From Streptomyces sp. TRM68367 (GTDB taxonomy: Bacteria; Actinomycetota; Actinomycetes; Streptomycetales; Streptomycetaceae), in assembly GCF_014495685.1 (NCBI RefSeq), contig NZ_JACTVI010000012.1:1-64000 (forward strand): a DNA stretch of 64,000 nt, in the 5' to 3' direction. Below, piece after piece: positions 33,884 to 60,462 of the stretch (within the stretch, counting starts at the first letter, position 1; every line of letters starts with the position of its first letter). The translations under genes were made by a program, and so were the position numbers. Below the pieces are notes generated by a model, which did no database searches, was not told where the DNA came from, and was given only the letters and a program-made list of their open reading frames with translations.

Positions 33884-36087
33884 ACGGCCTCCTCCGGGCG
33901 CGGCGCGGGGGTGCGGTCCTCGAGCGGGAGGACCGGGGGCAGCGAGTCCTCGCCCGCGCCGAGGAAGACCCGGCGTACGACGCGCTCGGCGGCGCGTCCG
34001 TCGTCGTACTCGCAGAACCGGCGCCGGAAGACGGCCCGCGTCTTCGCCGCGCTCTCGTCGCGCCAGGCGTCGGTGGTGAGGATCTCGGTGAGGTCCTGCT
34101 GGGTGCGGGACACCTGGCCCGGTGGCTCGGCCAGGAGGTCGAAGTAGACGCCGCGGGTGGTGCAGTAGGTGTCCCAGTCGTCGGCGTGGATGACGATCGG
34201 GCGGTCGAGGTTGGCGTAGTCGAACATGATCGAGGAGTAGTCCGTGACCAGGACGTCCGCGGCCAGGCAGAGGTCCTCGACCGGGTCGTAGGAGGAGACG
34301 TCGACGATCCGGCCGGTGCGGCGCAGGCCCGTCAGGGGGGACGCCGTTCCGTTGTAGAAGTAGTGGCCGCGGACCAGGAGGACCGTGTTCTCGCCCAGGC
34401 GGTCGGCGAGGGCGGCGAGGTCCAGGCGGGGGGTCCAGCCGGCTTCGTAGTCGCGGTGGGTCGGGGCGTAGAGGACGGCCCGGCGGCCGGGCTGGATGCC
34501 GAGGCGGGCGCGGATCGCGCGGATGTCCTGAGCGGTCGCCTTGTAGTAGACGTCGTTGCGCGGATAGCCGTAGTCCAGGGACGTGTAGCGGGCGGGGTAG
34601 GCCCGCTGCCACATGCGGGTGGTGTGGCTGTTGGCGGAGAGGCTGTAGTCCCACTTGTCGACGCGTTCCAGCAGGGCCCCGAAGTCAATGCCCTGCGCGG
34701 CGGCCGGGAACGGCATCTGGTCCACGCCCATTCGCTTGAGCGGGGTGCCGTGGTGGGTCTGGAGGTGGATCTGGCCGGGGCGCTTGACCAGCGCGTTGGG
34801 GAAGTTGACGTTGTTGACCAGGTACCGGGCGGTCGCCAGCACCTCCCAGTAGCGGCGGGTGCCGGGGACGACGTGGTCCGTGCCGGGCGGGAGCAGCGGC
34901 GCGTTCTGCGCGGTCACCACCCACACCGGGCGGATCTGCGGGGCGCGTTTCGCGAGCTCGGCGGCGATCGCGGCCGGGTTGCAGGTGACGCCGCGGTTCC
35001 AGTAGGCGGCGAAGACGGCCAGGTGGGGGTCGACCGGGCGGTCGAGGGCCCTGCGGTACTGGTGGTCACGCAGCCGCGCGCCGAGTTGGCGCTTGCCGGT
35101 CCGCAGGGTCGACCTCGCGGCGCGGCGGGTGCGGTTGGCGGCCTGGAAGGCGCGGTAGCGGCTGTAGGCGCCCCGTTCGAGGAGGCTGCGGCGGATGCCC
35201 TCCGATCCCGCCGGGGGGCGGTAGCCCTCGGGGCGGCGGCGCAGCGCGGCGAGCGAGGCGCGCCGGAAGAACTCGCGGGCCACCGGGTCCGGCATGGCCG
35301 AGCGGGCGAAGATGCGCAGCAGGTCGTGGACCATGACGTTGTACAGGACGGCGTGCGCGGCGGGGCGGTCCCGGGTGAGGTCGAGGAGGGTCTCGTAGCG
35401 GTCGACGAGGGCGTAGCGCTGCTCGGGGGTGAGCGGCGGGAGGCTCTCGGGCCGCGGGCGGCGGTCCTCGTAGGCGATGTGCGGCAGGCAGGCCATGCCG
35501 TCGGCGAGGAGGAGGGCGGCGTACGCGGCGAACGGCTCGTCGTCCGTGGTGAGCCGCTCCTCGTGCGCCCGCCAGAAGCCGGTGCGCAGGACGCGGGTGC
35601 CGAGCAGCGGGGTCAGGCGCAGCAGGGGCGCGCAGTCGCCTGCGCGGCCCGCGCGGGCGAGGAGGGGGCCGTCCGGGGAGGGCAGGCCCGAGGTCCGCCA
35701 GGTGCTGCGCAGGTGGTCCAGGAGCAGCACGTCGACCGTGTCGGGCAGTTCCGCGACGCGCTCGGCGACCATGCGCGGGGCGCCGGCGGGCAGCCCGTCC
35801 TTGGCGTGCACGAAGTGCAGCCAGTCGCCGGACGCCCGCGCGGCGCCCGCGGCCCGGGCCGCCGCGTCGCCGGTGCCGTCCGGCAGGGGCAGTACGGCAC
35901 CGGCGCTGCCGGGCGCGTGGGCCTCGGCCGTCGCCCGGGCCCAGTCGCCGACCGCCGCGACGATCACCTCGGTGTCCGGGAGCGGGTGGGCGGCCAGGGA
36001 GTCGAGGAGTCCGGCCAGGTGGCCCTGGGTGTCCGGCCCGTGGACGATGACGCTGAGCCGGGGTGTCTGCGGCATCTCGGGCATCAC
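33880..36087 (-). CDS. TagF-like CDP-glycerol glycerophosphotransferase with degenerate N-terminal GT2 domain
   Basis: 735 residues. The C-terminal half (about 360-715) is a TagF/CDP-glycerol glycerophosphotransferase domain with HHGTPLKRMG, YAPTHRDYE, and VTDYSSIMFDYANLDRPIV. The N-terminal ~230 residues look like a GT2 domain (LSVIVHGPDTQGHLAGLLDS), but the expected FLDxDD is replaced by FVHAKDG, so that half probably cannot bind a nucleotide sugar. Start is GTG 36087 (or ATG 36084), with AAGGAG upstream. Expected to polymerise phospho-polyol units of a wall teichoic acid-like polymer. Confidence 0.87.
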   Translation of the reverse strand: MMPEMPQTPRLSVIVHGPDTQGHLAGLLDSLAAHPLPDTEVIVAAVGDWARATAEAHAPGSAGAVLPLPDGTGDAAARAAGAARASGDWLHFVHAKDGLPAGAPRMVAERVAELPDTVDVLLLDHLRSTWRTSGLPSPDGPLLARAGRAGDCAPLLRLTPLLGTRVLRTGFWRAHEERLTTDDEPFAAYAALLLADGMACLPHIAYEDRRPRPESLPPLTPEQRYALVDRYETLLDLTRDRPAAHAVLYNVMVHDLLRIFARSAMPDPVAREFFRRASLAALRRRPEGYRPPAGSEGIRRSLLERGAYSRYRAFQAANRTRRAARSTLRTGKRQLGARLRDHQYRRALDRPVDPHLAVFAAYWNRGVTCNPAAIAAELAKRAPQIRPVWVVTAQNAPLLPPGTDHVVPGTRRYWEVLATARYLVNNVNFPNALVKRPGQIHLQTHHGTPLKRMGVDQMPFPAAAQGIDFGALLERVDKWDYSLSANSHTTRMWQRAYPARYTSLDYGYPRNDVYYKATAQDIRAIRARLGIQPGRRAVLYAPTHRDYEAGWTPRLDLAALADRLGENTVLLVRGHYFYNGTASPLTGLRRTGRIVDVSSYDPVEDLCLAADVLVTDYSSIMFDYANLDRPIVIHADDWDTYCTTRGVYFDLLAEPPGQVSRTQQDLTEILTTDAWRDESAAKTRAVFRRRFCEYDDGRAAERVVRRVFLGAGEDSLPPVLPLEDRTPAPRPEEAV

Positions 36088-46634: not shown

Positions 46635-48884
46635 TCAGCGGGGGCCGGCAGGGTGCGGCACGGTGGTGAGCGGGGAGCGGTCCAGCGCCGCGGCCGCCGA
46701 CGGCACCGCGCGCCGCTCGTCGAGCGGCACGACCGCAGGCAGGCCCGTGTCGGACTCGCCGAGCACGACCCGGCGTACGACCCGCTCGGCGGCGCGTCCG
46801 TCGTCGTACGGGCAGAACCGCTCGCGGAACGCCGAGCGCAGCTGGGCCGAGCGCGAGCCGCGCCAATGGCCGGTGGCGAAGATGTCGATCAGCTCGTCCT
46901 CGCTGCGCGCCACCGCGCCCGGCGGGAAGGACCGCAGGTCGAAGTAGGTGCCGCTGGCCGCCGTGAACGCCTCCCAGTCGTCGGCGTGGATCACGATCGG
47001 CCGGTCCAGGCTCGCGTAGTCGAACATCAGCGACGAGTAGTCGGTGACCAGGGCGTCCGAGGCCAGGCACAGCGACTCCACGCTCGGGTGTCCGGTGACG
47101 TCGATGACCCGGCCCGCGGCGCGGGCCAGCGGCCCGCCGTGCCGGGGGTGGGCGCGGGCCAGGACCACGAAGCGCGGGCCCAGGCGCCGCACGATGCGCT
47201 CCAGGTCGAGGGTGTGGCGCTGGGTGCGGCGGTAGTCGCGGTGGGTCGGCGCGTACAGGATCGCCACCGTGCCCTCCGGTACGCCGAGGGACTCACGCAG
47301 CTGGGCCACGTCGTGCGAGGTCGTGCTCTGGAACAGGTCGGTGCGGGGGCGGCCGTACTCCAGCGTGGTGTAGCGGCCGGGGTGGACGCGCTCCCCGGTC
47401 AGGGTGGAGTGGCGGTTCGCGGACACGACGAAGTCCCAGGTGTCGACCTCGCGCAGCAGCTGCGCGAAGTCGGTGTCGCGGGCGGCGGCCGGGCGTTCCT
47501 GGAGGTCGAGGCCCTGGTGCTTGAGCGGCGTGCCGCGGTGGGTCTGGACGAGGATCTGGCCGGGGCGCTTGACCAGGCGGCGGTCCAGGCCGGCGTCCGT
47601 GACCAGGTACGTGGAGCGGGCCAGCGCCGTCCAGTAGGCGGCCGTGCCCGGGGTGACACGGCGGGGGCCCGGCGGGATCGCGGCGTGGTACTCGGGGCGG
47701 GCGATCCACGCCGTGCCGATATGCGGGGCGAGGCTGCGGCACGCCCGCTCCAGCGCGGCCGGGTCGCCGCCGTAGCCCTGGCCGCCGTCGGCGGTGAAGA
47801 CGGCGCGGTCGGCGCGCAGGGGCAGGCATCGCTGGACGCGGTAGTGGGCCTTCAGCAGGGCGGCACGCACGCCCCGGAGGAGCAGCCCGGCGAAGTGGGT
47901 CGCCGCGCGGCCCACGGCCGACGCCCACCGCAGGGCCGTCCAGGTGCGGCGCAGGCCGAAGCGGACCAGGGCGTGACGGAACCGGGTGCGCGGCGGGACA
48001 CCGGCGCCCGGCGTGCGGTAGCGGCGGTAGTGGGCGCGGGCCCGCCGCAGGAACTCGGCCCGGGCGCGGCGCGGCAGCCGGTTCCGGCGGGCGGACACCG
48101 CCCACAGATGGTCGACCATGCGGCGGAACAACACCGGCCGCCACGCTGCCAGTTCGGGCCGCTCGTCGAGATAGGCGAACACCCGGTCGTACTGCTCGAA
48201 GACGTCGAAGTGCCGCTCGCCGGCGGTGCGCGGGACGCTGCCGTGGCGGCGCTGCCGGTGATGCACGCACACCCGGTCCAGCGTCGCGAGCGACTCCGCC
48301 GTCATCAGCAGCGGGTACGTCCACGGCGTGTCCGCGTAGTGGCCGGGCGGGAACGCGAAGCCGTGCTCGCGCACGAACTCCCGCCGGCACGCCTTGTTCC
48401 AGGCGACCGTGCGCAGCCGCAGCAGCCCCGGTCGGTTCTCCAGGCGGAACGGCGCCGAGTCCTGCTCGGTGAGCCGGCCGGCGGCCCGGCTGTGGACGGT
48501 CTCGCCCGACCAGTACGTGCGCGCGTGGTCGTACACCAGCACGTCCGGCTCGTCCGTCTCCTTCAGCCGGTCGGCGATCGACCGCAGTGCGTCCGGGGCG
48601 AGCGTGTCGTCGCCGTCCAGGAAGAGCAGATAGTCGCCGGCCGCCTCCTCCAGAGCGGCGTTGCGGGCGCCGCCCGGGCCGGTGTTCCCCGGCAGGTGCA
48701 GCACCCTGACCCGGGGGTCGCGCACGGCGTACTCGTCGAGGATCGCGCCGCAGGCATCCGGCGAGCAGTCGTCCACCCCGATCAGTTCGAGATCGGGGTA
48801 CGACTGGGAGAGCACCGAATCCAGGCACTCGTGCAGGTACGCCTGGACCTTGTACGCGGGGACGATGACACTGAACCTGGGCAA
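46635..48884 (-). CDS. GT2 glycosyltransferase-TagF-like CDP-glycerol glycerophosphotransferase fusion
   Basis: 749 residues from TTG 48884; a TTG at 48923 is possible, but the GT2 fold begins right after 48884 (MPRFSVIVPAYKVQAYLHEC). The N-terminal GT-A domain is intact (VDDCSPDACG, YLLFLDGDDTL). The C-terminal part (about 380-720) has the TagF motifs HRGTPLKHQG, YAPTHRDYR and VTDYSSLMFDYASLDRPIV. It is a paralogue of the protein at 33880-36087 but keeps the DxD, so it may both glycosylate and polymerise a teichoic acid-like chain. Confidence 0.88.
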   Translation of the reverse strand: MPRFSVIVPAYKVQAYLHECLDSVLSQSYPDLELIGVDDCSPDACGAILDEYAVRDPRVRVLHLPGNTGPGGARNAALEEAAGDYLLFLDGDDTLAPDALRSIADRLKETDEPDVLVYDHARTYWSGETVHSRAAGRLTEQDSAPFRLENRPGLLRLRTVAWNKACRREFVREHGFAFPPGHYADTPWTYPLLMTAESLATLDRVCVHHRQRRHGSVPRTAGERHFDVFEQYDRVFAYLDERPELAAWRPVLFRRMVDHLWAVSARRNRLPRRARAEFLRRARAHYRRYRTPGAGVPPRTRFRHALVRFGLRRTWTALRWASAVGRAATHFAGLLLRGVRAALLKAHYRVQRCLPLRADRAVFTADGGQGYGGDPAALERACRSLAPHIGTAWIARPEYHAAIPPGPRRVTPGTAAYWTALARSTYLVTDAGLDRRLVKRPGQILVQTHRGTPLKHQGLDLQERPAAARDTDFAQLLREVDTWDFVVSANRHSTLTGERVHPGRYTTLEYGRPRTDLFQSTTSHDVAQLRESLGVPEGTVAILYAPTHRDYRRTQRHTLDLERIVRRLGPRFVVLARAHPRHGGPLARAAGRVIDVTGHPSVESLCLASDALVTDYSSLMFDYASLDRPIVIHADDWEAFTAASGTYFDLRSFPPGAVARSEDELIDIFATGHWRGSRSAQLRSAFRERFCPYDDGRAAERVVRRVVLGESDTGLPAVVPLDERRAVPSAAAALDRSPLTTVPHPAGPR

Positions 48885-49039
48885 GGCACATCCATGGGTC
48901 GGCGCGGGCGTTCGGCCCGGCAACGGCCGTTGGAGTGACTTGGTTACGGCGGCTACGGCATTCGGGGGACACCCTCGTCAGCGCCGAGAGGCGGCCCGGT
49001 ACTCCATCCCGGACCGCCCCCACCAGCCTGCTCCGTCGG

Positions 49040-49954
49040 CTACTTGACCGCCCCCGCCATCACGCCCTGCACGAACTGCCGCTGGAACGCGAAGAACACG
49101 ACCAGCGGGATCGCCAGTGAGATGAACGCGCCGGGCGCCAGCACGTCGACGTTGTTGCCGAACTGCCGTACCTGCGTCTGCAGGGCGACCGTGATCGGCT
49201 GACTGTCGGAGTCGGTGAAGATCAGCGCGACCAGCATGTCGTTCCACACCCACAGGAACTGGAAGATGCCGAGGCTCGCGATCGCGGGCCCGCCCAGCGG
49301 CATCACCACGCGCAGGAACAGGCGCAGTTCGCCCGCCCCGTCCAGGCGGGCCGCCTCCAGCAGCTCCTTGGGGATCTCGGCGAAGAAGTTCCGCAGCAGG
49401 AACACCGCGAACGGCAGACCGAAGCCGACGTGGAACAGGATCACGCCGATGAGCGAGCCGAAGACGCCGATGTTGCCGAAGAGTTCGGCGACCGGGATCA
49501 GCGCCACCTGCACGGGCACGACCAGCAGGCCGACCACGCCCAGGAACCACCAGTCGCGGCCCGGGAACTCCATCCAGGCGAACGCGTAGCCCGCGAGCGA
49601 GCCGATCACCACCACCAGGACGGTCGCCGGCACGGTGATGGCCACCGTGTTCACCAGGGAGTTGGTGATGTCGTCGTTCTCCAGCAGCTTCTGGTAGGCG
49701 CCGAAGGTGAGCTGCGAGGGCTGGGTGAAGACGTTCCACCAGCCGGTCGCGGCGATGTCCTCCGGTGCGCGCAGGCTGGCCAGCAGCACACCGACCGTCG
49801 GCACCAGCCAGAACAGGCCGACGACGATGAGGAAGGCACGGACCAGACCGCCGCTGAGCTTGTCGACGATCCGCCCGCCGAGCGACTGCCTGGCGCTGCC
49901 GGCCGTGACGGGCGGCGGCGCCGCCTTCGTGAGACGTGTGGTGTCCGCGGTCAT
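49040..49954 (-). CDS. Carbohydrate ABC importer permease (MalG type)
   Basis: 304 residues, six membrane helices, and the EAA loop EIPKELLEAARLDGAGELRLF (contacting the ATPase) followed by a C-terminal FQRQFVQGVMAGAVK typical of MalG-like permeases. The ATG overlaps the stop of the MalF-like gene by four bases. No ATPase gene is present; in Streptomyces, importers of this type commonly share the MsiK ATPase encoded elsewhere. Substrate unknown. Confidence 0.92.
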   Translation of the reverse strand: MTADTTRLTKAAPPPVTAGSARQSLGGRIVDKLSGGLVRAFLIVVGLFWLVPTVGVLLASLRAPEDIAATGWWNVFTQPSQLTFGAYQKLLENDDITNSLVNTVAITVPATVLVVVIGSLAGYAFAWMEFPGRDWWFLGVVGLLVVPVQVALIPVAELFGNIGVFGSLIGVILFHVGFGLPFAVFLLRNFFAEIPKELLEAARLDGAGELRLFLRVVMPLGGPAIASLGIFQFLWVWNDMLVALIFTDSDSQPITVALQTQVRQFGNNVDVLAPGAFISLAIPLVVFFAFQRQFVQGVMAGAVK

Positions 49955-51297
49955 CGCCTGGCCTCCCGCCTGAGCCGACGAATGTTGAACCACATCACCG
50001 GGATCACAAGCAGCAGCAGGAACACCGCGATGGCGCTCGCGATGCCCGGCTGGTCCTCGGAGAAGCCCTTGCGGTACAGCTCCAGGGCGAGGACGTTCGC
50101 GTCGTCCTGGGAGGAGCCGGGCGCGATGATGAAGACCAGATCGAAGATCTTCAGCACGTTGATCATCAGGGTGACGGTGACGACCGCGAGGACGGGGGCG
50201 AGCAGCGGCACCGTGATCCGTCTGAACACCTGCCACTCGTTCGCGCCGTCCACCCGCGCCGCCTCCAGCAGGTCGCGCGGGATGCCCGCGAGCCCGGCCG
50301 CGATCAGCACCATCGCGAAGCCCGCCCACATCCAGATGTACGCCCCGATGATCGCCGGTGTGACGAGCGACGGGCCGAGCCAGTTCAGGCCGTTGTACGG
50401 CTCCTTGAAGTTGCTCGCCGGGAGCCGCAGTCGGCCCCCGTCCGCCGAGGCCGGCAGCGTGAACGTGCCGTCGTCGCCGGCCGTCGTCGACGCGACCACC
50501 CTGCCGTCCTTGACGGCCTCGATCTTCATCCCGGCGTAGCCCGTCTCGGACCCGTCGACCCCGTTCAGGGTCCCGACGCCCTTGCCGCGCGTGAAGTCCT
50601 GCCAGGCCGTGCCGGTGACCTTCCCCGGCTCCGCCTTCGGCGCCACCGCGGTCTGCGCGCCGTCGGGCATCTGGTCCGGGGCCACACCCACCAGGGGCAG
50701 CGCCACCGGATCCCCGGCGCGCACCGGCGCCTTCGTGATGAACGCGCCGCCGCCCGCGGACTCGAGCGGCGACTCACGGCCCGGGTGCGCCTTCGGGAAC
50801 GCCGACGCCTGCGCGAACGTGTCGTGGACGCCGACCCACACCGCGTTCGCGACGCCCTTCTCCGGGTCCTGGTCGTACACCAGGCGGAAGATGATGCCCG
50901 CCGCCAGCATCGAGATCGCCATCGGCATGAAGACGACGAGCTTGAACGCCGTGCCCCAGCGCACCCGCTCGGTCAGCACCGCGAAGATCAGGCCGAGCGC
51001 GGTGGCGATCGTGGGCGCGAACACCACCCAGATGATGTTGTTCTTCAGGGCGGTGCGTATGCCCTGGTCGGTGAACAGGGCCTCGTAGTTGTCGAATCCG
51101 GCGAAGCCGTCGCCGGACTGGTCGTAGAAGCTGCGGACGAGCGAGTACCCGATCGGGTACACCACGAGCGCGCCGAGCAGCACGAGAGCGGGCAGCAGGA
51201 ACAGTGCCGCCACGGTCTTGCGCGTGCCCGTCACGCTCTTGCGCGACTTGGGTGCGGCAGGGGTCGGTGGGACCCCTGCCGCCGTGGCCGACGTCAT
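49951..51297 (-). CDS. Carbohydrate ABC importer permease (MalF type) with large extracellular insert
   Basis: 448 residues. The first helices (about 28-125) and the last ones (about 285-445) make a normal MalF-like permease with EAA loop GIPRDLLEAARVDGANEWQVF. Between them is an insert of ~150 residues (about 145-290) with GYAGMKIEAVKDGRVVASTT and GDDGTFTLPAS, which looks like a carboxypeptidase-regulatory/Ig-like beta domain exposed outside. This is analogous in position to the P2 loop of E. coli MalF, although the sequence type differs. Overlaps the MalG-like gene. Confidence 0.9.
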   Translation of the reverse strand: MTSATAAGVPPTPAAPKSRKSVTGTRKTVAALFLLPALVLLGALVVYPIGYSLVRSFYDQSGDGFAGFDNYEALFTDQGIRTALKNNIIWVVFAPTIATALGLIFAVLTERVRWGTAFKLVVFMPMAISMLAAGIIFRLVYDQDPEKGVANAVWVGVHDTFAQASAFPKAHPGRESPLESAGGGAFITKAPVRAGDPVALPLVGVAPDQMPDGAQTAVAPKAEPGKVTGTAWQDFTRGKGVGTLNGVDGSETGYAGMKIEAVKDGRVVASTTAGDDGTFTLPASADGGRLRLPASNFKEPYNGLNWLGPSLVTPAIIGAYIWMWAGFAMVLIAAGLAGIPRDLLEAARVDGANEWQVFRRITVPLLAPVLAVVTVTLMINVLKIFDLVFIIAPGSSQDDANVLALELYRKGFSEDQPGIASAIAVFLLLLVIPVMWFNIRRLRREARR

Positions 51298-51304
51298 CGC
51301 CGGA

Positions 51305-52717
51305 TCAGCCTCCGTACGCAGCCGCGGCGGCCGCCTCCAGCTTGTTCTGCGTACCCGCGACGTCCGTCGGGTTCTTCAGGAAGTCCTGGAGGATCTTCCA
51401 CTCGCCCTTGCCGGGCGTGCCGCCGAAGGCCTGCGGTGCCTGGTCGGACATGTCGTAGCGGAAGTCGTCGCCGGCTTCGACGAGCGCCTTGGCCATCTCC
51501 CGCTGCACCGCGTTCGGGTACGCCGAGTTCGGCACGTTCTTGTTCGGCGAGAGGTAGCCGCCAAGACCGGCCTGGATGGCCGCCGCGTCCGGGGAGGCCA
51601 GGAAGGTGGCCAGTGCCTGCGACGCCTTGGAGTCCCGCAGGATGACGGCCGCGTCGCCGCCGGTGACCACGGGGGCCGTGTCGCCGACCGCCGGGAACGG
51701 GAACACCTTCGCGTCCGTGCCGATCTTCGCCTTGGCCTCGCCGATGTTGACCTGCACGAAGTCGGCGCCGACGACCATGGCGCCCTTGGGCTGGTCGCCG
51801 CCGGTGAAGGCCTGCGTCACGGACGCCGGGAACTCGGTCTGCAGCGTGCCGTTCGGGCCGCCCGCGAGGTAGTCCTTCTTGCCCCAGATCTCGGCCAGGG
51901 TGGTCAGGGCCTGCTTCACGGACGGGTCGGTCCACTTGATCTCGTGCTTGGCCAGCTGGTCGTACTTCTCCGGGCCCGCCTGCGAGAGGTAGACGTTTTC
52001 GAACCAGTCGGTGAGGACCCAGCCGTCGGCGCCGCCGATCGAGAACGGGGTGACGCCGGAGTCGTAGATCGTCTGCGCGGTGGTGAGCAGGTCCTTCCAG
52101 GTCTTGGGCTCACTCGCGCCCGCGTTCTCGAAGACCTGGTTGTTGTACCAGACCAGCGACTTGTTGGCGGCCTTGTAGTACACGCCGTACGGCTTGCCGC
52201 CCACCTTGCCGATGTCCTGCCAGCCCTGCGAGAAGTTCTTCGTCAGCTGCGCCTGGGTCTCGGCGCCCAGCGGCTTGGCCCAGCCCCTGCCGACGGCCTG
52301 CTTGATCGCGCCGGGCTGCGGCAGCATCGCCACGTCCGGGGGCTGGCCGCCGGCGATCTTCGAGCCGAGGAAGTTGATGATCGGGTCCTGGGCGGGCACG
52401 AAGGTGACCTTGGCACCCGTGCGCTTCTCGAACTCCGCGAGGACCTTCTTGAAGTTGGCCTGTTCCGTGCCGGTCCAGACGGCGGCGACTTCCAGGCTCT
52501 CGCCGTTCAGCTTGGGGAGGGTGACGGTGGTGCCTGTTTCCTTGCCCGTCTCTCCTGCGCTGCTGTTGTCGTCGTCGCCTCCGCAAGCGGTGAGCGAGAG
52601 CGCGAGGGCTCCCGCGAGGACGGCGGCCGCGGTCTTCGCGGCCCTGGGTGTGCGCCTTGCCGTGGGATACTTGGGCGACCTGGGTGTCCGGATCGTGCTG
52701 CTCGTGGTGCGTCGCAT
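51305..52717 (-). CDS. Carbohydrate ABC importer solute-binding lipoprotein
   Basis: 470 residues. A long basic N-terminus leads into a lipoprotein signal with lipobox LTAC at Cys45, followed by GGDDDNSS. The mature protein is a family 1 extracellular solute-binding protein: VAAVWTGTEQANFKKVLAEF, PPDVAMLPQPGAIKQAVGRG, GVYYKAANKSLVWYN and KGAMVVGADFV. It delivers the substrate to the two permeases downstream, seven bases away. ATG 52717 or the adjacent GTG 52720 starts it. The sugar cannot be predicted. Confidence 0.92.
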   Translation of the reverse strand: MRRTTSSTIRTPRSPKYPTARRTPRAAKTAAAVLAGALALSLTACGGDDDNSSAGETGKETGTTVTLPKLNGESLEVAAVWTGTEQANFKKVLAEFEKRTGAKVTFVPAQDPIINFLGSKIAGGQPPDVAMLPQPGAIKQAVGRGWAKPLGAETQAQLTKNFSQGWQDIGKVGGKPYGVYYKAANKSLVWYNNQVFENAGASEPKTWKDLLTTAQTIYDSGVTPFSIGGADGWVLTDWFENVYLSQAGPEKYDQLAKHEIKWTDPSVKQALTTLAEIWGKKDYLAGGPNGTLQTEFPASVTQAFTGGDQPKGAMVVGADFVQVNIGEAKAKIGTDAKVFPFPAVGDTAPVVTGGDAAVILRDSKASQALATFLASPDAAAIQAGLGGYLSPNKNVPNSAYPNAVQREMAKALVEAGDDFRYDMSDQAPQAFGGTPGKGEWKILQDFLKNPTDVAGTQNKLEAAAAAAYGG

Positions 52718-52884
52718 CACTGCCCCGTTCTTCGTTCCTCGTCGAACGCTCGAACCCTGTCCCGTGCGGTCTGGTCTACGCTGGAGAGTTATGGGCGGCA
52801 AGGGCACCTGAGCTGTCCAGCGGAAGATCGTGACCCCCTCGTGACTCGCGGAGGGAAAAAGACCTCGACTGGGGCGCCGGGTGC

Positions 52885-55800
52885 TTACAGGAGTGAAGCG
52901 ACTTTCAAGGACGCCACCTCCCGCGCCGCCCTCTCCAACGCGCTGGCGAGCAGCGCCAGATCAGTCGGCCCGTTGCCCAACTCCCGTACCGGACGCCGGG
53001 TGGGCGGGTCGCCCATGCGGTGCCAGTCGAGCGGCACGACCGTCGGCCGCAGCGTCGCCGTCCGCGGGATACGGCCCGTGACCCGCCCGCCCTGGAACGC
53101 GGTGACCCGCCCGTCCGCGCGCGTCAGCCGTCCCCGGCCCGGCGCCGGTTCGTCCGTCCCCGCCGCCGGCGCGTCCAGCGCGACGCGCAGGGCCGCCCGC
53201 CGCGCCGGCTCCGTCTGCGCCGTACGGCCGCCGGGCCCGGCGGCCGCCACCAGGTGCACGCCGAGCCGCGCGCCCTCCCGGGCCACCGCCTCCAGCGCCC
53301 GTATCACGGAACCGGCGGCGGGCCGGCCGGGCGAACCGAGCGCCGGGGAGACCAGCGCGTCCAGGTCGTCCACGACGACGACGAGCCGGGGCAGCGGGGG
53401 CGCGGCCTCCGTCCGCCGCCGGGCGGCTCCCGGCCGCAGCCGCAGGGTCGAGCTGGGCGGGGTGTCGAGGTCACCGGAGCCGTCGTCCGCGCCGCCGCTG
53501 GCCCGCGCAGCCGCGCCCGAGACCGGGCCCGAGCCTGAGGCGCCGCGCGCCGCCGCCGTGCGCTGGGCGACCATCCGGCCGGACAGCTCGCGGCCGGTGT
53601 GCCACTCGGTGAAGTCGGACCGGCCCAGCAACTCGGCGCGCCGCTTCAGTTCGGCGCTCAGGGACTGGGCGAACTCCCGCATGCGGACCGGGTCGTTGGC
53701 GCTGAGGTACGTGGTGACGTGCGGTACGTCCGTGCACACCCGCAGACCGTCGCCGTGCCCGCCGCCCGGTCCGGCGCCGTCGCGGCCGTCCACCAGGACG
53801 ATGCCCAGCCGGTCCGGCCGCTCGGCTGCGGCCAGCGAGGCGACCACGGCCCGCAGCAGCTCCGTACGGCCGCTGCCCGCCGGGCCCTCGATGAGCAGGT
53901 GCGGTCCCTCGGCCACGAGGTCCGCGCAGACCGGCCCGCGCGGACCGGCCCCCAGCACGGCGCACACCCGTCCGCCGAGCGCCGCCGTGTCGTCGGCCGC
54001 GTCCGCCCAGCGCGCCATCAGGGAGGCTGGGGTCGCCCGCGCCAGCCCCAACTCGTCCAGCAGCCGCGCCGCCTGAGGCAACGGTGCTGCCACGCACGCG
54101 TGCCGCGCACCGCCGCCGTCCGCCCGCAGCGGCGCGAGCGCCCGCGCGAACCGCTCCGCCCAGGCGGGAGAGACGGCGTCCACGGCGGCGATGGTGCCGT
54201 GGCCCACGGGGCCGGGGGAGTGCGGGGCGTTGTGTGCGGCGGGGTGGCGGTCGGTGGGGTGCTGGTCGCCGGGGCCGGGGGCGGGGCCGGTGCCGGGTGC
54301 CGGGTGCCACTGGTCGGTGCAGCTGGGGGCGGTGGGGCGCCGGTCGCTGTTGCCGGGTGCGGCGCGCCGCTGGTCGGCGGGGGATGCCGCTGATGCTCCG
54401 GTGCCGCCCGTGCGGGCCACGCGCAGCAGCCGCAGGGCCGTGGCCACGTCGCCGCTGAGCAGGGCTACGGCACTGCAGTCGCGGAACGTCGGCGCCACCG
54501 CGCAGGCGGCCTCGTACGTCTCCGTCACCGGCGAGGCCGGGGAGGCGGCGGCCGTCTCTGCGAGGCACACCACGTGTATGCCGGCCCGCGGGCCCTCCAG
54601 CGCCAGCCGCGCCACCGCGTCGCGCAGATCGGCACCACCGGGGTCCCCGTCCACGACGACCACGGTGTACGGCCCAGGGAACCCGTTCGCCTCGTCGGCA
54701 CGGTCGTCGTCCCTGGCCCAGGAGGGGCGGCGGGGTGCACCGCGGTGCGGGGCGTCGGGGGTGGGAGCGGGGGCGGGGTGAGTGTCGCCGCTGGTGGGCG
54801 CCGCGGCCTGTGCCGCCGTGCCGTACTGCGGCGCGGCGTTGGCGGCCGGGGATCCCTGCGTACCGCTGATCCGTGCCGAGTCGGAGGACATCGCGTCGGA
54901 TGCCGCCGCGCCCGATCCGGTCGCACGGGATCCCGTCGCACCGGGTCCGGTCGCCGCGGACCCCGGTGTGCCGCCGGTGCCGCCCGCGCCGGACGCTGTT
55001 GCGCCGGAGGGACCCGGCGTGCCGGAGGAGCTCGGCACACCGGCGAGGTCCGCTCTGTCCGTCGTCCGCTCTCCTGGCGCCGTCGGCCGTGCCGCGGCGC
55101 GCGTCTGCGTCGGGTGGTCCTCCAGGCGGCGCAGGAGTTCCGCGGTGCGGGCCATGGCCTGTTCGCGGTCGTAGGCGAGGAGGAGGCGGCAGTCCTGGCC
55201 GTGTCCCGGGCGGACGTGCGGCAGCCAGCCCAGCCAGGACCACTCGGCGGTGCGCTCCTCCAGCGGGCGGGAGCGGTCCGCGCTGATCAGGACGATCTCC
55301 AGGGTGTCGGGGGAGTGCAGCGCGGCGAGCTGGGCCAGTACCGCGCGGGCCAGCCCGCCGAGCCGCCCGCGCGGACCGGCCAGCCCCAGCGCCCCGACCT
55401 CGCACAGCCCGGCGGTCACCGGCACCGCGGGCAGCAGTCCCGATCCGTCGGGCGCCGTCCGGTCGGCCGTGCCGAGCCGCACCGCGAGCGCCTCCGGATG
55501 CCCGGGCCCGCGCTCCCACAGCCGCGGCCCCGGCCCCAGTGCTGCCAGCAGCAGGGTGGCCGGATCCGGCCAGGTCTCCGGCACCCCGGGCACGACGGCC
55601 GACGTCTCCGCCGCCACTCCGGCCGACTTGTCGTCGTAGTACTCCCGCCGTCCGTCCGCCGCAGGCTCCACGCGCCCACCGGCCAGCCGCCGCGCCCACG
55701 CCGCGAGCCCTCCGCGCCTGCGCACGCCCTGCGGCACGTCGGTACCCCGAATCGGCGTCGCCTTGCGCCCGCCCTCACGACCGGACCGGTCGTCGAGGGC

Positions 55801-57006
55801 CGCCGCCCCGGAGCCGTTGCCGTCGGCCGCCAACGGGCGGGACACGGCGCCCCCGGGATCCCCGGCGCCCCCGGCTTCGAACCGGCTGCCGACAGCCCCC
55901 GCTCCGGCCGTTCCGCCGTGTGTGTCACCGTCCCGGGCACCCACGCGCGGCGCGTCTCCGGAACCCGCTCGCGATCCGTCCGCGTCGCCGAAAGCCCCCA
56001 CCCCGGCCCGCCCACCGTGCGGGTCGCCCTCCCCGGAGCCCGCCCGTGAGGCACCTGCGCGGGCGGCTTCAGAGGCGTCCCCGGCAGATCCCGCACCCGG
56101 CGCCCCCGACCCCGCCCGGCGCTCGATCCGCGGCGCCCCGCCCTGGCCGGGCACCGCATGTCCCTGGGTGTCCGCGGCGGACGTGTCCGCGGCGGACACC
56201 CAGTCGGCCGTGCCGTAAGCGTGCGATGTGCCGTTCGTCGTCGGGGTGCCCGGCCCGCGTGCGTGTGGCGTCCCTGTTCCGGCGACGGCGGACCGGACGT
56301 GTCCTTCGCCGTCCGCCGCCGGCACGCGCACGTGGCCCTCGCCGTCCGGTGCCGTCTCCACCCGCGCCCCGGGTCCCCCGGTGGGGGCCAGCCGCAGGGC
56401 CGACTCACCGATACGGAGCAACGCGCCGGGGGCGAGTCGGACCGGGCGGGGGCCCACGCGGGTGCCGTCCAGGGCCGTGCCGTTCGTGGAACCCAGGTCG
56501 GCGACCGAGACGCGGCCGTCGGCGGCGACCGTCACCGCGCAGTGCAGCCGGGAGACGTCCGGGTCGTCGAGCGGGATGTCGGCGTCGGCGGAGCGGCCGA
56601 TGCGGATCTCGCCGCCGTGGAGGAGGTGGACGCCGCCCGCGTCGGGGCCGGCGATCACGTGCAGCTGTGTCGGGGCGTCGTCCAGCTCGGGATGCGGCTC
56701 GGGCTCGCCCGGCGCGCCCACGGACAGCACGGCACCATCGACCAGCGGGGGCACGCCAAGCGTGCAGCGCTGGGCGTCGAGCCGCTGCGCACCGGCGTAC
56801 AGCACGACGGGAGCGCCGCCGGACTCCCGGCCGCGCTCGGCCGGGGTGTGGCCGCCCTCGCCGGTGACCGCGGCGGCCAGCGCGGGCGCCACCGCGGCCA
56901 GGGCCGTGCCCGCCGGCGCCGTGACCAGCACGTCGCGGCTCGCGGCCCGGCCCCGCGCGGGAGCCGGGGAACCCAGCGGGTCTACGACGGTCAGCCGGAT
57001 CTGCAT
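52885..57006 (-). CDS. Giant FHA plus FtsK/EccC-like protein
   Basis: 1,373 residues from ATG 57006 (MQIRLTVVDPLG), chosen because the family starts here although the frame extends 39 codons upstream. A ubiquitin-like N-terminal region is followed by an FHA domain (about 115-205; IRIGRSADADIPL, SRLHCAV, LGSTNGT), a long disordered Gly/Ala/Ser-rich stretch (about 205-440), and an FtsK/SpoIIIE-like part. The nucleotide loop around residue 1040 reads EGPAGSGRTELLRA, with Arg for the usual Lys; VVVVDDLDALV is the Walker B-like strand. It resembles a solitary EccC-like ATPase; no type VII secretion genes are nearby. Two Ser/Thr kinases follow divergently. Confidence 0.85.
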   Translation of the reverse strand: MQIRLTVVDPLGSPAPARGRAASRDVLVTAPAGTALAAVAPALAAAVTGEGGHTPAERGRESGGAPVVLYAGAQRLDAQRCTLGVPPLVDGAVLSVGAPGEPEPHPELDDAPTQLHVIAGPDAGGVHLLHGGEIRIGRSADADIPLDDPDVSRLHCAVTVAADGRVSVADLGSTNGTALDGTRVGPRPVRLAPGALLRIGESALRLAPTGGPGARVETAPDGEGHVRVPAADGEGHVRSAVAGTGTPHARGPGTPTTNGTSHAYGTADWVSAADTSAADTQGHAVPGQGGAPRIERRAGSGAPGAGSAGDASEAARAGASRAGSGEGDPHGGRAGVGAFGDADGSRAGSGDAPRVGARDGDTHGGTAGAGAVGSRFEAGGAGDPGGAVSRPLAADGNGSGAAALDDRSGREGGRKATPIRGTDVPQGVRRRGGLAAWARRLAGGRVEPAADGRREYYDDKSAGVAAETSAVVPGVPETWPDPATLLLAALGPGPRLWERGPGHPEALAVRLGTADRTAPDGSGLLPAVPVTAGLCEVGALGLAGPRGRLGGLARAVLAQLAALHSPDTLEIVLISADRSRPLEERTAEWSWLGWLPHVRPGHGQDCRLLLAYDREQAMARTAELLRRLEDHPTQTRAAARPTAPGERTTDRADLAGVPSSSGTPGPSGATASGAGGTGGTPGSAATGPGATGSRATGSGAAASDAMSSDSARISGTQGSPAANAAPQYGTAAQAAAPTSGDTHPAPAPTPDAPHRGAPRRPSWARDDDRADEANGFPGPYTVVVVDGDPGGADLRDAVARLALEGPRAGIHVVCLAETAAASPASPVTETYEAACAVAPTFRDCSAVALLSGDVATALRLLRVARTGGTGASAASPADQRRAAPGNSDRRPTAPSCTDQWHPAPGTGPAPGPGDQHPTDRHPAAHNAPHSPGPVGHGTIAAVDAVSPAWAERFARALAPLRADGGGARHACVAAPLPQAARLLDELGLARATPASLMARWADAADDTAALGGRVCAVLGAGPRGPVCADLVAEGPHLLIEGPAGSGRTELLRAVVASLAAAERPDRLGIVLVDGRDGAGPGGGHGDGLRVCTDVPHVTTYLSANDPVRMREFAQSLSAELKRRAELLGRSDFTEWHTGRELSGRMVAQRTAAARGASGSGPVSGAAARASGGADDGSGDLDTPPSSTLRLRPGAARRRTEAAPPLPRLVVVVDDLDALVSPALGSPGRPAAGSVIRALEAVAREGARLGVHLVAAAGPGGRTAQTEPARRAALRVALDAPAAGTDEPAPGRGRLTRADGRVTAFQGGRVTGRIPRTATLRPTVVPLDWHRMGDPPTRRPVRELGNGPTDLALLASALERAAREVASLKVASLL

Positions 57007-57388
57007 CGCCGTCAGCGGTCCCTTCTGCGCGGGCGCCCGCGAATACGGGGCCGGAGGCCCCGCGAGCACGTCGTCCAGTACAGGAGGCATCCTCGCACCT
57101 GCCACTGACAGCGCGCCCGTCATCGGACATCAAATGATCTTGATTGGTCGGCTCTGGCCGGAAAAGTGGCTGACCAGTGACCTGTCGTTGATCGGCCGAA
57201 GACCGGTTGAGATCGGTCACGTCCGCGCTCCGGCAACCTGCGGATCGAGTCGAGCGTCTTTCCTTCGAAACCTTGACGGGTATTGACGGGCATTGACGGG
57301 CAGGAGCCGGCTCCACTGGAGCCGGTGCCTCCGACTGCGCCACTACAGTGGGTCGGAACTGATTCGCAAGCAGCAGGGAGCGCATGAC

Positions 57389-59062
57389 GTGCGTCCGGTA
57401 GGGAGCAAGTACCTCCTTGAGGAGCCGCTGGGGCGCGGCGCCACGGGCACTGTATGGCGCGCCCGCCAGCGGGAGACCGCGGGCGCCGAGGCGGCCGTAC
57501 CCGGTCAGCCGGGCGAGACCGTCGCGATCAAGGTCCTGAAGGAGGAGCTGGCGAACGACGCCGATGTCGTCATGCGCTTCCTCCGGGAGCGGTCGGTGCT
57601 GCTCCGGCTGACCCACCCGAACATCGTCCGGATCCGCGACCTCGTCGTCGAGGGCGATCTGCTGGCCCTGGTCATGGACCTCGTCGAGGGCCCCGACCTG
57701 CACCGCTACCTGCGCGAGAACGGCCCCTTCACGCCCGTCGCCGCGGCCCTGCTCACCGCGCAGATCGCCGACGCGCTCGCCGCCAGCCACGCCGACGGCG
57801 TCGTCCACCGCGACCTGAAGCCGGCGAACGTCCTGCTCAGGCAGGACGGCGACCAGCTGCACCCGATGCTCACCGACTTCGGCATCGCCCGTCTCGCCGA
57901 CTCCCCGGGCCTGACCCGGACCAGCGAGTTCGTCGGCACACCCGCCTACGTCGCGCCCGAGGGCGCCGAGGGCCGCCCGCAGACCTCCGCCGTCGACGTC
58001 TACGGCGCCGGCATCCTGCTGTACGAGCTGGTCACCGGCCGCCCGCCGTTCTCCGGGGGCTCCTCCCTCGAGGTGCTGCACCAGCACCTGAGCGCCGAGG
58101 CGCGCCGTCCGTCGACGGTCCCCGACCCCCTCTGGACGGTCATCGAGCGCTGTCTGCGCAAGAACCCGGACGACCGCCCCAGCGCCGAGAACCTCGCGCG
58201 CGGCCTGCGCGTCGTCGCCGAGGGCACCGGCGTGCACGCGAACTCCGCGCAGATCGCCGCCGCCGAGGGCGTCGGCGCGCTCCTCCTGCCCGACCCAGCC
58301 CCGGCCCCGGTGCCGGGATCGCCCGGTGCGGCCGACCCGACGCAGGTCCTGCCGCACGGCGCCGGCTCGTACGACCCGAATGCCGCGACCAGCGTCATGC
58401 CGCACACCGGCGGCCCGGCCGGCGCCGCCGACCCCACCGCCGTACTCCCGAACACGGGCGGTCCGGGCGGCCGCGGTGGTGCCGACCCGACGGCCATGAT
58501 GCCGCCGGTGCCGCCCGGCCAGCCGGGACAGCCCGGCCCCGAGGACCCGCACCCCTGGCAGAACCAGCTGCGGGCGGCCCGGGACCGCAACGAGCAGACG
58601 CAGGTCCAGCAGTACCTCGACCCCGGCCAGGACCCGCTGCGCCGCCGCCCCCAGCGGCACGTCGCCCGGCCGCAGCAGCAGCAGCCGCCGCAGCGGCGCC
58701 CGCAGCAGGGACCGGGCCCCGGTTACGCGCCGCAGCAGCAGCCCCCGCAGCGGTACGCGCCGCAGCAGCCGCAGCCCCAGCGGTACGCCCCGCCCGCCCG
58801 GCCGGAGCCGCAGCGGCCCGCCCCCGAGCCCCGGCAGCCGCGGCAGCGCAGCGCCAACCCGATGCGCATCCCCGGCCTGGGCTGCCTGAAGGGGTGCCTG
58901 TTCACGATCGTCATCCTGTTCGTCGCCGGGTGGCTGATCTGGGAGCTGAGCCCGCTGCAGGACTGGATCGGCACCGGCAAGGGCTACTGGGACCAGCTCA
59001 CCGACTGGTTCTCCACCGTGACCGGGTGGATCGAGAGCCTGGGCGGCTCCAGCGGCAACTGA
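57389..59062 (+). CDS. Membrane Ser/Thr protein kinase
   Basis: 557 residues from GTG 57389, preceded by GGGAG. Kinase domain about 1-275: glycine loop LGRGATGTVW, catalytic Lys48, HRDLKPAN, DFG in LTDFGIARLAD, and GTPAYVAPEGAEG. A Pro/Gln-rich juxtamembrane region (about 320-495; repeated PQQQPPQRYA) precedes one membrane helix (FTIVILFVAGWLIW, about 500-520) and a 37-residue outside tail without PASTA repeats. The neighbouring FHA protein is a plausible phospho-dependent partner. Confidence 0.93.
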   Translation: MRPVGSKYLLEEPLGRGATGTVWRARQRETAGAEAAVPGQPGETVAIKVLKEELANDADVVMRFLRERSVLLRLTHPNIVRIRDLVVEGDLLALVMDLVEGPDLHRYLRENGPFTPVAAALLTAQIADALAASHADGVVHRDLKPANVLLRQDGDQLHPMLTDFGIARLADSPGLTRTSEFVGTPAYVAPEGAEGRPQTSAVDVYGAGILLYELVTGRPPFSGGSSLEVLHQHLSAEARRPSTVPDPLWTVIERCLRKNPDDRPSAENLARGLRVVAEGTGVHANSAQIAAAEGVGALLLPDPAPAPVPGSPGAADPTQVLPHGAGSYDPNAATSVMPHTGGPAGAADPTAVLPNTGGPGGRGGADPTAMMPPVPPGQPGQPGPEDPHPWQNQLRAARDRNEQTQVQQYLDPGQDPLRRRPQRHVARPQQQQPPQRRPQQGPGPGYAPQQQPPQRYAPQQPQPQRYAPPARPEPQRPAPEPRQPRQRSANPMRIPGLGCLKGCLFTIVILFVAGWLIWELSPLQDWIGTGKGYWDQLTDWFSTVTGWIESLGGSSGN

Positions 59063-59159
59063 CCGCTGCCGCCACCGCAACTGACGGTCGGGTTGGGGAT
59101 TTGTCGACATCTGACGGGTGATTTCCGTCTTCGCAGTGAAGGTTGGTTCGACGGGCGCG

Positions 59160-59204
59160 TAGTTTTAGCGACTGCACGCGTCGTTTCAGCGACTACACGC
59201 GGTC
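59160..59204 (+). repeat. Tandem ~22-bp direct repeat upstream of the second kinase gene
   Basis: TTTTAGCGACTGCACGCGTCG and TTTCAGCGACTACACGCGGTCG lie head to tail (listed as two units, each about 21-22 bp) 15-60 bases before the kinase start. They may be a duplicated operator or promoter element. Confidence 0.55.
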
Positions 59205-59217
59205 GGTTGGAGCAGTC

Positions 59218-60462
59218 TTGGCACGGAAGATCGGCAGCCGTTACGCCACCCACCAGATCCTGGGCCGGGGCAGCGCCGGCACGGTGTGGCTTGGGGAGGG
59301 GCCGGACGGTCCCGTCGCCATCAAGCTGCTGCGCGAGGATCTCGCGTCCGACCAGGAGCTCGTCGGACGCTTCGTACAGGAGCGGACCGCCCTGCTCGGC
59401 CTCGAGCACCCGAACGTCGTGTCCGTGCGCGACCTGGTGGTGGACGGCAACGACCTGGCGCTGGTCATGGACCTCGTCCGGGGTACGGACCTGCGCACGC
59501 GGCTGGAGCGGGAGCGCCGACTGGCGCCTGAGGCGGCCGTCGCGATCGTGGCCGACGTCGCGGACGGGCTGGCCGCCGCGCACGCCACCGGGGTCGTGCA
59601 CCGGGACGTGAAGCCGGAGAACGTCCTGCTGGACATGCAGGGCCCGCTGGGACCCGGCGGCTCCCACCGCGCCCTCCTGACGGACTTCGGTGTGGCGAAG
59701 CTCATCGACACCCCGCGCCGGACCCGCGCGACGAAGATCATCGGGACGCCGGACTACCTCGCGCCGGAGATCGTCGAGGGACTGCCGCCGCGCGCGTCGG
59801 TCGACATCTACGCCCTGGCCACGGTCCTGTACGAGCTGCTGGCCGGGTTCACGCCGTTCGGCGGCGGACACCCGGGCGCGGTGCTGCGCCGCCATGTGAC
59901 CGAGACGGTCGTGCCGCTCCCCGGCATCCCCGACGAACTGTGGCAGCTGCTCGTGCAGTGCCTGGCCAAGGCCCCGGCCTCGCGGCTGCGCGCGTCCGAG
60001 TTGGGCGCGCGGCTGCGGGAGCTGCTGCCGTTGCTGGCCGGGATGCCGCCGCTGGAGGTGGACGAGCCGGACACGGAGGCCGCGGAGGTGCCGGAGGACG
60101 AGGCCGCGGGGGCGCCGGCGCCGCCCGCCGGTGAGCAGGTGCGGCGGCGTGGGGCGGTGCCGCTGGTGCCGGGGGCGAAGCCGGCCGACTCCAACCGGGA
60201 CACGCATACGTCGATGCGGGTGCCGGCGCCGGACGAGCTGGCCGGGGGTGCGCGGGGGACGGCGCGGGCGCCGCGGGCCTCGGGGGCGCCGCGGCCCGGG
60301 TCGGCGCGGAATCGCGCTGCGGTACGGCGGCGTCGGGTCATGCTCGGGGTGGGGGCGGCGGTGCTGGTGGCTGCGGTGGGCATCGGTACGTGGGTGTCGG
60401 TATCGGACGACGCCGGTGGTGCGCCGACCGACACCAAGAATTCGGCGCCGGCGTCGCCGTGA
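59218..60462 (+). CDS. Membrane Ser/Thr protein kinase
   Basis: 414 residues from TTG 59218, preceded by GGAG five bases away. Kinase domain about 1-265: LGRGSAGTVW, VAIKLL for the catalytic lysine, VVHRDVKPENVLL, LLTDFGVAKL and GTPDYLAPEIVEG. An Ala/Pro/Glu-rich linker leads to one C-terminal membrane helix (VMLGVGAAVLVAAVGIGTWV) and a 19-residue outside tail. It is a tandem paralogue of the preceding kinase; together they probably phosphorylate the divergent FHA/FtsK-like protein or shared targets. Confidence 0.92.
   Translation: MARKIGSRYATHQILGRGSAGTVWLGEGPDGPVAIKLLREDLASDQELVGRFVQERTALLGLEHPNVVSVRDLVVDGNDLALVMDLVRGTDLRTRLERERRLAPEAAVAIVADVADGLAAAHATGVVHRDVKPENVLLDMQGPLGPGGSHRALLTDFGVAKLIDTPRRTRATKIIGTPDYLAPEIVEGLPPRASVDIYALATVLYELLAGFTPFGGGHPGAVLRRHVTETVVPLPGIPDELWQLLVQCLAKAPASRLRASELGARLRELLPLLAGMPPLEVDEPDTEAAEVPEDEAAGAPAPPAGEQVRRRGAVPLVPGAKPADSNRDTHTSMRVPAPDELAGGARGTARAPRASGAPRPGSARNRAAVRRRRVMLGVGAAVLVAAVGIGTWVSVSDDAGGAPTDTKNSAPASP

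Follow-up and report, generated by a model that had tools for sequence, protein, structure and literature searches.

A family-wide FHA protein with an EccC-like, Arg-bearing ATPase-fold domain encoded beside the Ser/Thr kinase PkaA in Streptomyces

The FHA parts of FhaA/TB39.8, GarA/OdhI and Rv1747 are joined to other effector parts. Few readers are known for the Ser/Thr kinases of genomes such as the one considered here. In EccC, the motor of the type VII secretion system (T7SS), the DUF (D0) and D2/D3 are non-catalytic ATPase-fold domains of the same family, according to the accessible text of PMC11154593. This study concerns a gene on a 64-kb stretch of Streptomyces sp. TRM68367 (contig NZ_JACTVI010000012.1, positions 1 to 64,000), which is called the window. 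The gene encodes the FHA protein, in which an FHA domain is followed by a linker and by EccC-like D0 and D1 domains (Table 1). The originally predicted gene limits (52885-57006) were correct, and the strand is minus. Two Ser/Thr kinase genes, pkaA and pkaB, are divergent to it and are followed by prfB, which in the S. coelicolor locus we take to be SCO2972. Because of the divergent kinases, prfB and a second-kinase tail like that of SCO2973, we take the gene to correspond to SCO2975 of S. coelicolor, and the locus to SCO2972-SCO2975. The PkaB tail of the window was compared by eye with the SCO2973 tail printed in PMC3087755, as far as that text was accessible. No study of an SCO2975-type FHA-EccC-like protein was found in open-licence PMC papers.

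Pfam and NCBIfam profiles were run on the 1373-aa protein. The predicted FHA domain was confirmed by a PF00498 match at residues 134-200 (E 3.4e-18, 66.3 bits against a cut-off of 20.7), and the residues that contact phosphothreonine (pThr) are kept. R138, S139, S152, R153, H155, N175 and G176 were invariant in 43 aligned sequences. The FtsK-like domain was found as well, with PF01580 (FtsK_SpoIIIE) matching residues 1023-1256 (E 9.4e-14, 51.8 bits against a gathering score of 24). The best named profile family was EccCa TIGR03924, at 138.6 bits far under its cut-off of 509.15. EccC also provided the closest solved chains, both by sequence search and by Foldseek, in which the model of residues 466-1373 matched T. 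curvata EccC. The mean predicted local distance difference test (pLDDT) score of this model was only 54.7 because of the linkers and its first 70 residues, and most other D0/D1 blocks scored 70-90. Long runs of Ala/Gly/Pro/Ser lie within the low-pLDDT parts of this model, in agreement with the long disordered region that had been expected. No P-loop is present in D0, whose first strand is modelled as continuing directly into a long helix. A like strand-to-helix arrangement is described for the DUF of EccC5 in the accessible text of PMC11154593.

The D1 domain carries the altered motor motifs. Arg replaces the Walker A Lys in GPAGSGRT (residues 1041-1048, Arg being residue 1047), as the original prediction had stated. 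The D1 model shows the canonical P-loop order of strand, loop and helix, with the helix beginning at the Arg, and Gly1041, Gly1046, Arg1047 and Thr1048 were invariant in 38 aligned sequences. The dipeptide GK does not occur in the whole 1373-aa protein. A second canonical P-loop, which the original prediction had named as a ground for refutation, is excluded, the only other matches to a loose pattern being GEIRIGRS, which holds the GRS motif of the FHA domain, and AAGPGGRT. The protein ends after a single FtsK_SpoIIIE stretch and has no D2-D3, whereas EccC and the paralogues have two or three such stretches. The motif DYKGG/DFKGG, present in the paralogues, was absent from all orthologue rows printed.

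The gene is found throughout the family. With a D1 query, matches at E up to 1e-25 were obtained in all 121 Streptomycetaceae genomes searched, which cover 17 of 17 genera; this threshold is close to the best match taken as a paralogue (1.8e-26, a 1478-aa frame in G016), and orthology within the 121 was checked one by one only for the fetched loci. The weakest family matches (1e-27 to 1e-29) all came from the genus g9, in which the two loci read (L204 and L205) look orthologous and lie beside PkaA. Neighbours were searched with tblastn in a named set consisting of the best 80 of 309 relatives in one scan. These were 79 loci titled Streptomyces and one titled Kitasatospora (L071), which groups with Streptomyces in the tree. 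PkaA was matched in 74 of the 80 loci, PkaB in 70 and prfB in 60, several loci ending before the neighbours; the PkaB figure is 73 matches minus three PkaA cross-hits (L062, L067, L085). In 27 wider loci, three of them belonging to two further families within the order, the FHA gene occurred with PkaA in 27, PkaB in 23 and prfB in 22. The predicted divergent adjacency of two Ser/Thr kinases stands, and the link is stronger than first supposed, with PkaA beside the FHA gene in every wider locus. The gene order argues for a strong genetic tie of this family-wide, EccC-derived FHA protein to PkaA.

Eight duplicate loci were removed before rows were counted. The 28 other-genus rows represent 27 of 93 other-genus genomes and 16 genera, G036 being counted twice (L147, L162). 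The FHA core pattern was present in 71 of 81 window and named rows, 4 of 35 other Streptomyces rows, 19 of 28 other-genus rows and 2 of 3 rows outside the family; most of the 35 rows and seven of the nine other-genus misses are stretches that end before the N-terminus, and the remaining two (L160, L203) gave no match in the frame read. A pseudogene or sequencing error was rejected for the family, given the D1 match in 121/121 genomes and the purely synonymous codon change at the Arg. Single unclean cases were split frames in L047, L065 and L085 and seven D1 matches that hold one stop.

The Walker A position was Arg in 81/81 window and named rows and in 32 of the 35 other Streptomyces rows; the remaining three, all divergent Streptomyces, had Lys. 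The other-genus rows had Lys in 24 and Arg in four. Among orthologues GSGRT is therefore conserved in the close ones and is no constant of the family, Lys remaining in three divergent Streptomyces and in most rows of other genera. The Arg codon of the 113 Streptomyces-group Arg rows was CGT in 82, CGC in 26 and CGG in 5, which is synonymous change only, and the Lys codon was AAG in all 27 Lys rows. The P-loop of the 113 Arg rows almost always read GPxGSGRTE, with few exceptions per position. Judged by the synonymous-only codon change, the conserved Arg is more than chance. Five Lys/Arg changes were needed on a quick tree of 85 rows, though long branches (L166, L156) account for two of these changes. 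Three were needed on a careful tree of 40 rows, from which the longest branches had been removed, with nine rows excluded by name and others thinned. A single Arg clade was rejected on the 40-row tree (approximately unbiased test, p-AU 8.7e-40; the group was chosen after seeing the data, and the bootstrap had not settled). Lys comes out as the ancestral state when the tree is rooted with the Lys-bearing paralogues, and the polarity depends on that choice.

The second acidic residue of Walker B was Asp in 81/81, 34/35 (L169 unread) and 28/28 rows of the three family samples, and Glu in all four paralogues. It therefore appears that Walker B changed before the Walker A Lys did. With DD in Walker B, and with DYKGG, D2 and D3 missing, a loss of hydrolysis becomes more likely.

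The linker of PkaA contains repeats that could be docking sites for the FHA domain. PkaA has 2-4 T-x-h-h-P repeats between the kinase domain and the hydrophobic segment, and a hydrophobic +3 residue fits one known class of FHA ligands. When only complete frames were counted (62 of the 74 PkaA matches, and 65 PkaB), at least two T-x-h-h-P, mostly T-x-V-[L/M]-P, were present in 61/62 PkaA frames and in 0/65 PkaB frames. The 43 linkers with both anchors had on average 3.2 T-x-V-[L/M]-P, against 0.0036 after shuffling. The DNA pattern GAYCCNACNNNNGTNMTSCC (DPTxV[LMI]P) occurred twice in the 9.67-Mb genome, both times in pkaA, and the reversed control gave 0. The genome has 42 kinase profile matches, of which 12 were without a locus; 29 of 30 loci were read, and T-x-V-[L/M]-P was found in PkaA alone. 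At least one T-x-h-h-P was also present in 24 of the 27 PkaA of the wider loci.

The pkaA gene has been linked to sigma-E. The accessible text of PMC6767563 has a sigma-E target table that includes sco2974 (pkaA) and sco2975, the latter as a 'hypothetical protein'. A sigma-E-type site is listed there for sco2974, the motif of sco2975 is poor, and at least 9 of 19 genomes are predicted to share the pkaA sigma-E promoter. A site directed at pkaA was present in the window, and 61 of 65 usable loci had one too (15 of the 80 were unusable, and the counts are without a chance control). PkaI interacts with PkaA, as given in the accessible text of PMC4416010.

We propose, as a tentative but quite possible reading, that a relative of EccC-type ATPases gave up its part in secretion to act as a soluble adaptor that depends on phosphorylation, is probably non-hydrolysing and is recruited by phosphorylated PkaA. 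Both the non-hydrolysing and the phosphorylation-controlled character are read from sequence. Envelope stress would raise PkaA through sigma-E, and PkaA, a membrane kinase, would phosphorylate its own T-x-V-[L/M]-P repeats on their threonines. One or more SCO2975 molecules would then bind the pThr repeats through their FHA domains, and the scaffold would gather at the membrane. The D1 pocket may still hold nucleotide without hydrolysis, and binding of nucleotide or phosphate, not a power stroke, would govern the assembly of a D0-D1 oligomer. As a first guess, the client may be envelope or wall polymer synthesis. A broader version would make this a secretion motor turned signalling scaffold, Streptomycetaceae-wide and EccC-derived, without D2-D3 or a membrane anchor, and paired with PkaA through tandem pThr docking. 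In that version, natural occurrence in at least three lineages of the Lys-to-Arg change known from laboratory work, which can keep RecA-fold ATPases bound and non-hydrolysing, would have given a nucleotide-locked ring at phosphorylated PkaA that connects sigma-E stress to wall synthesis; in this full form we consider it unlikely. A Walker A Lys-to-Arg change often keeps nucleotide binding and removes hydrolysis. RecA K70R lost its ATPase activity and not all of its ATP binding (accessible text of PMC9769622).

Several observations weigh against the adaptor reading, and the first group concerns lysine. With 4 Lys and 136 Arg among its 1373 residues, the FHA protein has a smaller share of Lys than any other of the 27 window proteins examined. 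A general loss of Lys is thus a serious rival as the cause of Arg1047. The Lys-to-Arg change would then reflect drift in a pocket whose need for nucleotide is gone, with D1 as a structural platform for the FHA domain; we judge this rather unlikely. The median Lys share of D0-D1 was 0.25% in the Arg type (51 rows) and 0.34% in the Lys type (27 rows), a difference (Mann-Whitney p 0.012, kinship ignored) that suits plain drift, and the four paralogues had 1.5-2.5% over their full length. Outside the family, the Walker A position was Val in two rows and the motif was gone in one. Of the S. coelicolor sequences that PMC10665810 analysed, 35.4% are reported to contain lysine deserts. The near-lysine-free FHA protein, with both Walker A types alike, is possibly a lysine desert in an actinobacterium. 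However, the Lys-type orthologues are almost equally depleted and still retain the Walker Lys (24/28 other-genus rows). In addition, a dead pocket would not need the almost constant GPxGSGRTE with synonymous-only Arg change seen in 113 rows.

The second group concerns catalysis. RecA K70R is an imperfect precedent, since it bound ATP about three-fold less and bound none without single-stranded DNA (accessible text of PMC9769622). Since most other-genus rows retain Lys, the ancestral protein may have been a functional ATPase that had the same partner. The FHA protein could even be an active though slow ATPase that drives DNA or protein movement, Arg serving in the role of Lys. The PF01580 score above its cut-off, the canonical P-loop order of the model and the Lys of many orthologues speak for such an enzyme. 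The change of the Walker B Glu to Asp in every family row read and the absence of DYKGG and D2-D3 speak against it, and we regard it as improbable.

The third group concerns the partner and its regulation. Five other kinases of the genome hold one looser T-x-h-h-P each. The repeat pattern is missing from PkaA in three of the 27 wider loci (L201, L204, L205; L204 and L205 have near variants), and one PkaB frame of 24 in these loci has one T-x-h-h-P match, three of the wider-set PkaB frames being read only as short pieces. The FHA domain may read PkaB, the activation loop of a kinase or some unrelated protein, and another FHA protein may be the one that uses the PkaA repeats. Threonines of activation loops are known targets of FHA domains, PkaB is conserved beside the FHA gene almost as often as PkaA, and further FHA-like matches in the genome (C124, C268) could read PkaA. 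This alternative is somewhat unlikely, in view of the divergently adjacent position of PkaA and the rarity of the repeat genome-wide. No sigma-E site toward the FHA gene was found in the usable loci (0/65). The site faces only pkaA, and pkaA and the FHA gene therefore need not be co-induced.

The FHA protein had been described as solitary, which held for its surroundings and not for the genome. No T7SS component was named by Pfam among the 29 other window proteins scanned (three without any match, and some open frames unscanned), in line with the prediction that no T7SS genes are near. Elsewhere the genome encodes two EccC proteins (C273, C18) as well as two full-length EccC-like proteins of the FHA type (C214, C220), and EccC passes the profile cut-off in 116 of the 121 family genomes. 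The D0-D1 part might therefore regulate T7SS in trans, as an inactive subunit inserted into rings that EccC or the full-length paralogues form. This is weakened by the five genomes without EccC over the cut-off, since all 121 have a D1 match. G060 has no TIGR03924 match at 1e-80 and yet keeps the FHA-EccC-like gene, of the Arg type (L128). With no T7SS gene among the scanned window proteins either, we hold regulation in trans to be quite improbable.

In D1, no protein of the genome is closer to the FHA protein than the two full-length paralogues (39-43% identity). They keep the canonical D1 motifs (GTTGSGKSE, DEFA) and have D2-D3. Where the FHA protein has its linker, they have a hydrophobic stretch, seen by eye in C214 and with a hydropathy of 2.23 at residue 283 in C220. 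PF00498 was not detected in either at E 0.1, which fits a degenerate FHA domain. An origin of D1 from D2/D3 was tried and rejected, as the best paralogue matches were to D1 (88.9 and 83.3 bits) against 18.6 for the D2 piece. The paralogue D2 and D3 both have Arg for the Walker A Lys: GSPRQGRSQ and GPARSGRST, and GAPRTGRSQ and GPAKSGRST (L009 4775-9241, L010 165-4823). One paralogue is adjoined by a long YD-repeat (Rhs-like) frame with a nuclease-like end, as seen by eye (L009 3-4697), which suggests a polymorphic-toxin locus.

Table 1. Coordinates of the FHA-protein gene, its domains and motifs, and the neighbouring features in the window.
Feature	Position	Strand	Description
FHA-protein gene	52885..57006	minus	1373 aa; ATG at 57006, stop 52885-52887; FHA - linker - EccC-like D0 - D1
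N-terminal part	56683..57006	minus	residues 1-108; possible ubiquitin-like fold, low-confidence model
FHA domain	56407..56607	minus	residues 134-200; GRS, SRxH, STNGT motifs
Low-complexity linker	55612..56361	minus	residues 216-465; hydrophobic membrane-type stretch here in full-length paralogues
EccC D0-like domain	54397..55611	minus	residues about 466-870; disordered insertion; TIGR03924 positions 178-288
EccC D1-like ATPase-fold domain	52888..54204	minus	residues 935-1373; TIGR03924 positions 357-539
Walker A GPAGSGRT	53863..53886	minus	residues 1041-1048; Arg1047 codon CGT 53866-53868
Walker B VVVVDD	53365..53382	minus	residues 1209-1214; second acidic residue Asp, not Glu
Sigma-E-type site GGCAAC-N17-CGTC	57232..57258	plus	toward pkaA
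PkaA counterpart (SCO2974)	57389..59062	plus	Ser/Thr kinase, hydrophobic C-terminal segment; GTG start proposed
Four PkaA linker repeats DPTQVLP, AATSVMP, DPTAVLP, DPTAMMP	58334..58504	plus	candidate pThr docking sites
PkaB counterpart (SCO2973)	59143..60462	plus	Ser/Thr kinase, hydrophobic C-terminal tail

The FHA protein has its start in common with orthologues that begin MQIRLTVVDP. Pfam named no domain in the N-terminal part before the FHA domain, which the original prediction had called ubiquitin-like. The model of residues 1-215 has the order beta-alpha-beta-beta-beta, with a mean pLDDT of only 57.5, and ubiquitin-fold-domain rows were among its structural matches with Z of only about 5. 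By hydropathy only, the most hydrophobic 21-residue stretch of the protein is 26-46 (1.76, the mark used being 1.6), which sits within the N-terminal domain and overlaps the model helix 36-48.

Further genes surround the locus. ABC transporter genes follow the FHA gene at window positions 49043-52807, with a solute-binding protein and two permeases named by Pfam and no ATPase gene seen. The binding protein and the first permease were matched in 77 of the 80 named loci and in only part of the wider set, and they are inverted in L042. Two CDP-glycerol glycerophosphotransferase-like proteins of the teichoic-acid type are encoded near the kinase locus (33883-36087 and 46638-48923).

For this conserved pair of kinase and candidate reader a possible docking motif can be named, and S. 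coelicolor therefore allows a direct test of the PkaA pathway. If the adaptor reading is true, an EccC-type ATPase is used outside secretion. The repeated natural Walker A Lys-to-Arg change would offer a natural test of a P-loop without hydrolysis, with the Lys-type orthologues of sister genera as controls.

Compared with known systems, the FHA protein is most like the T7SS motor EccC (Thermomonospora curvata EccC, PDB 4NH0) in the fold and order of D0 and D1. It differs from EccC in having no D2-D3 and, by hydropathy, no membrane stretch at the EccC place, in its added FHA domain, in the replaced Walker A Lys and Walker B Glu, and in the lack of T7SS genes among the window proteins scanned. 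EccC also contains degenerate domains, but its D1 stays active, whereas in the FHA protein D1 itself is altered and no canonical ATPase domain is left. The full-length proteins C214 and C220 share its N-terminal plan and D0-D1 and are otherwise its mirror image: the FHA protein has an intact FHA domain and an altered motor, and the paralogues have a degenerate FHA domain and a canonical D1. FhaA/TB39.8, GarA/OdhI and Rv1747, chains of which were among the FHA matches, are alike in FHA fold and pThr-contact residues. Unlike in these kinase-linked adaptors of actinobacteria, the effector joined to the FHA domain here is an EccC-derived domain with altered motifs.

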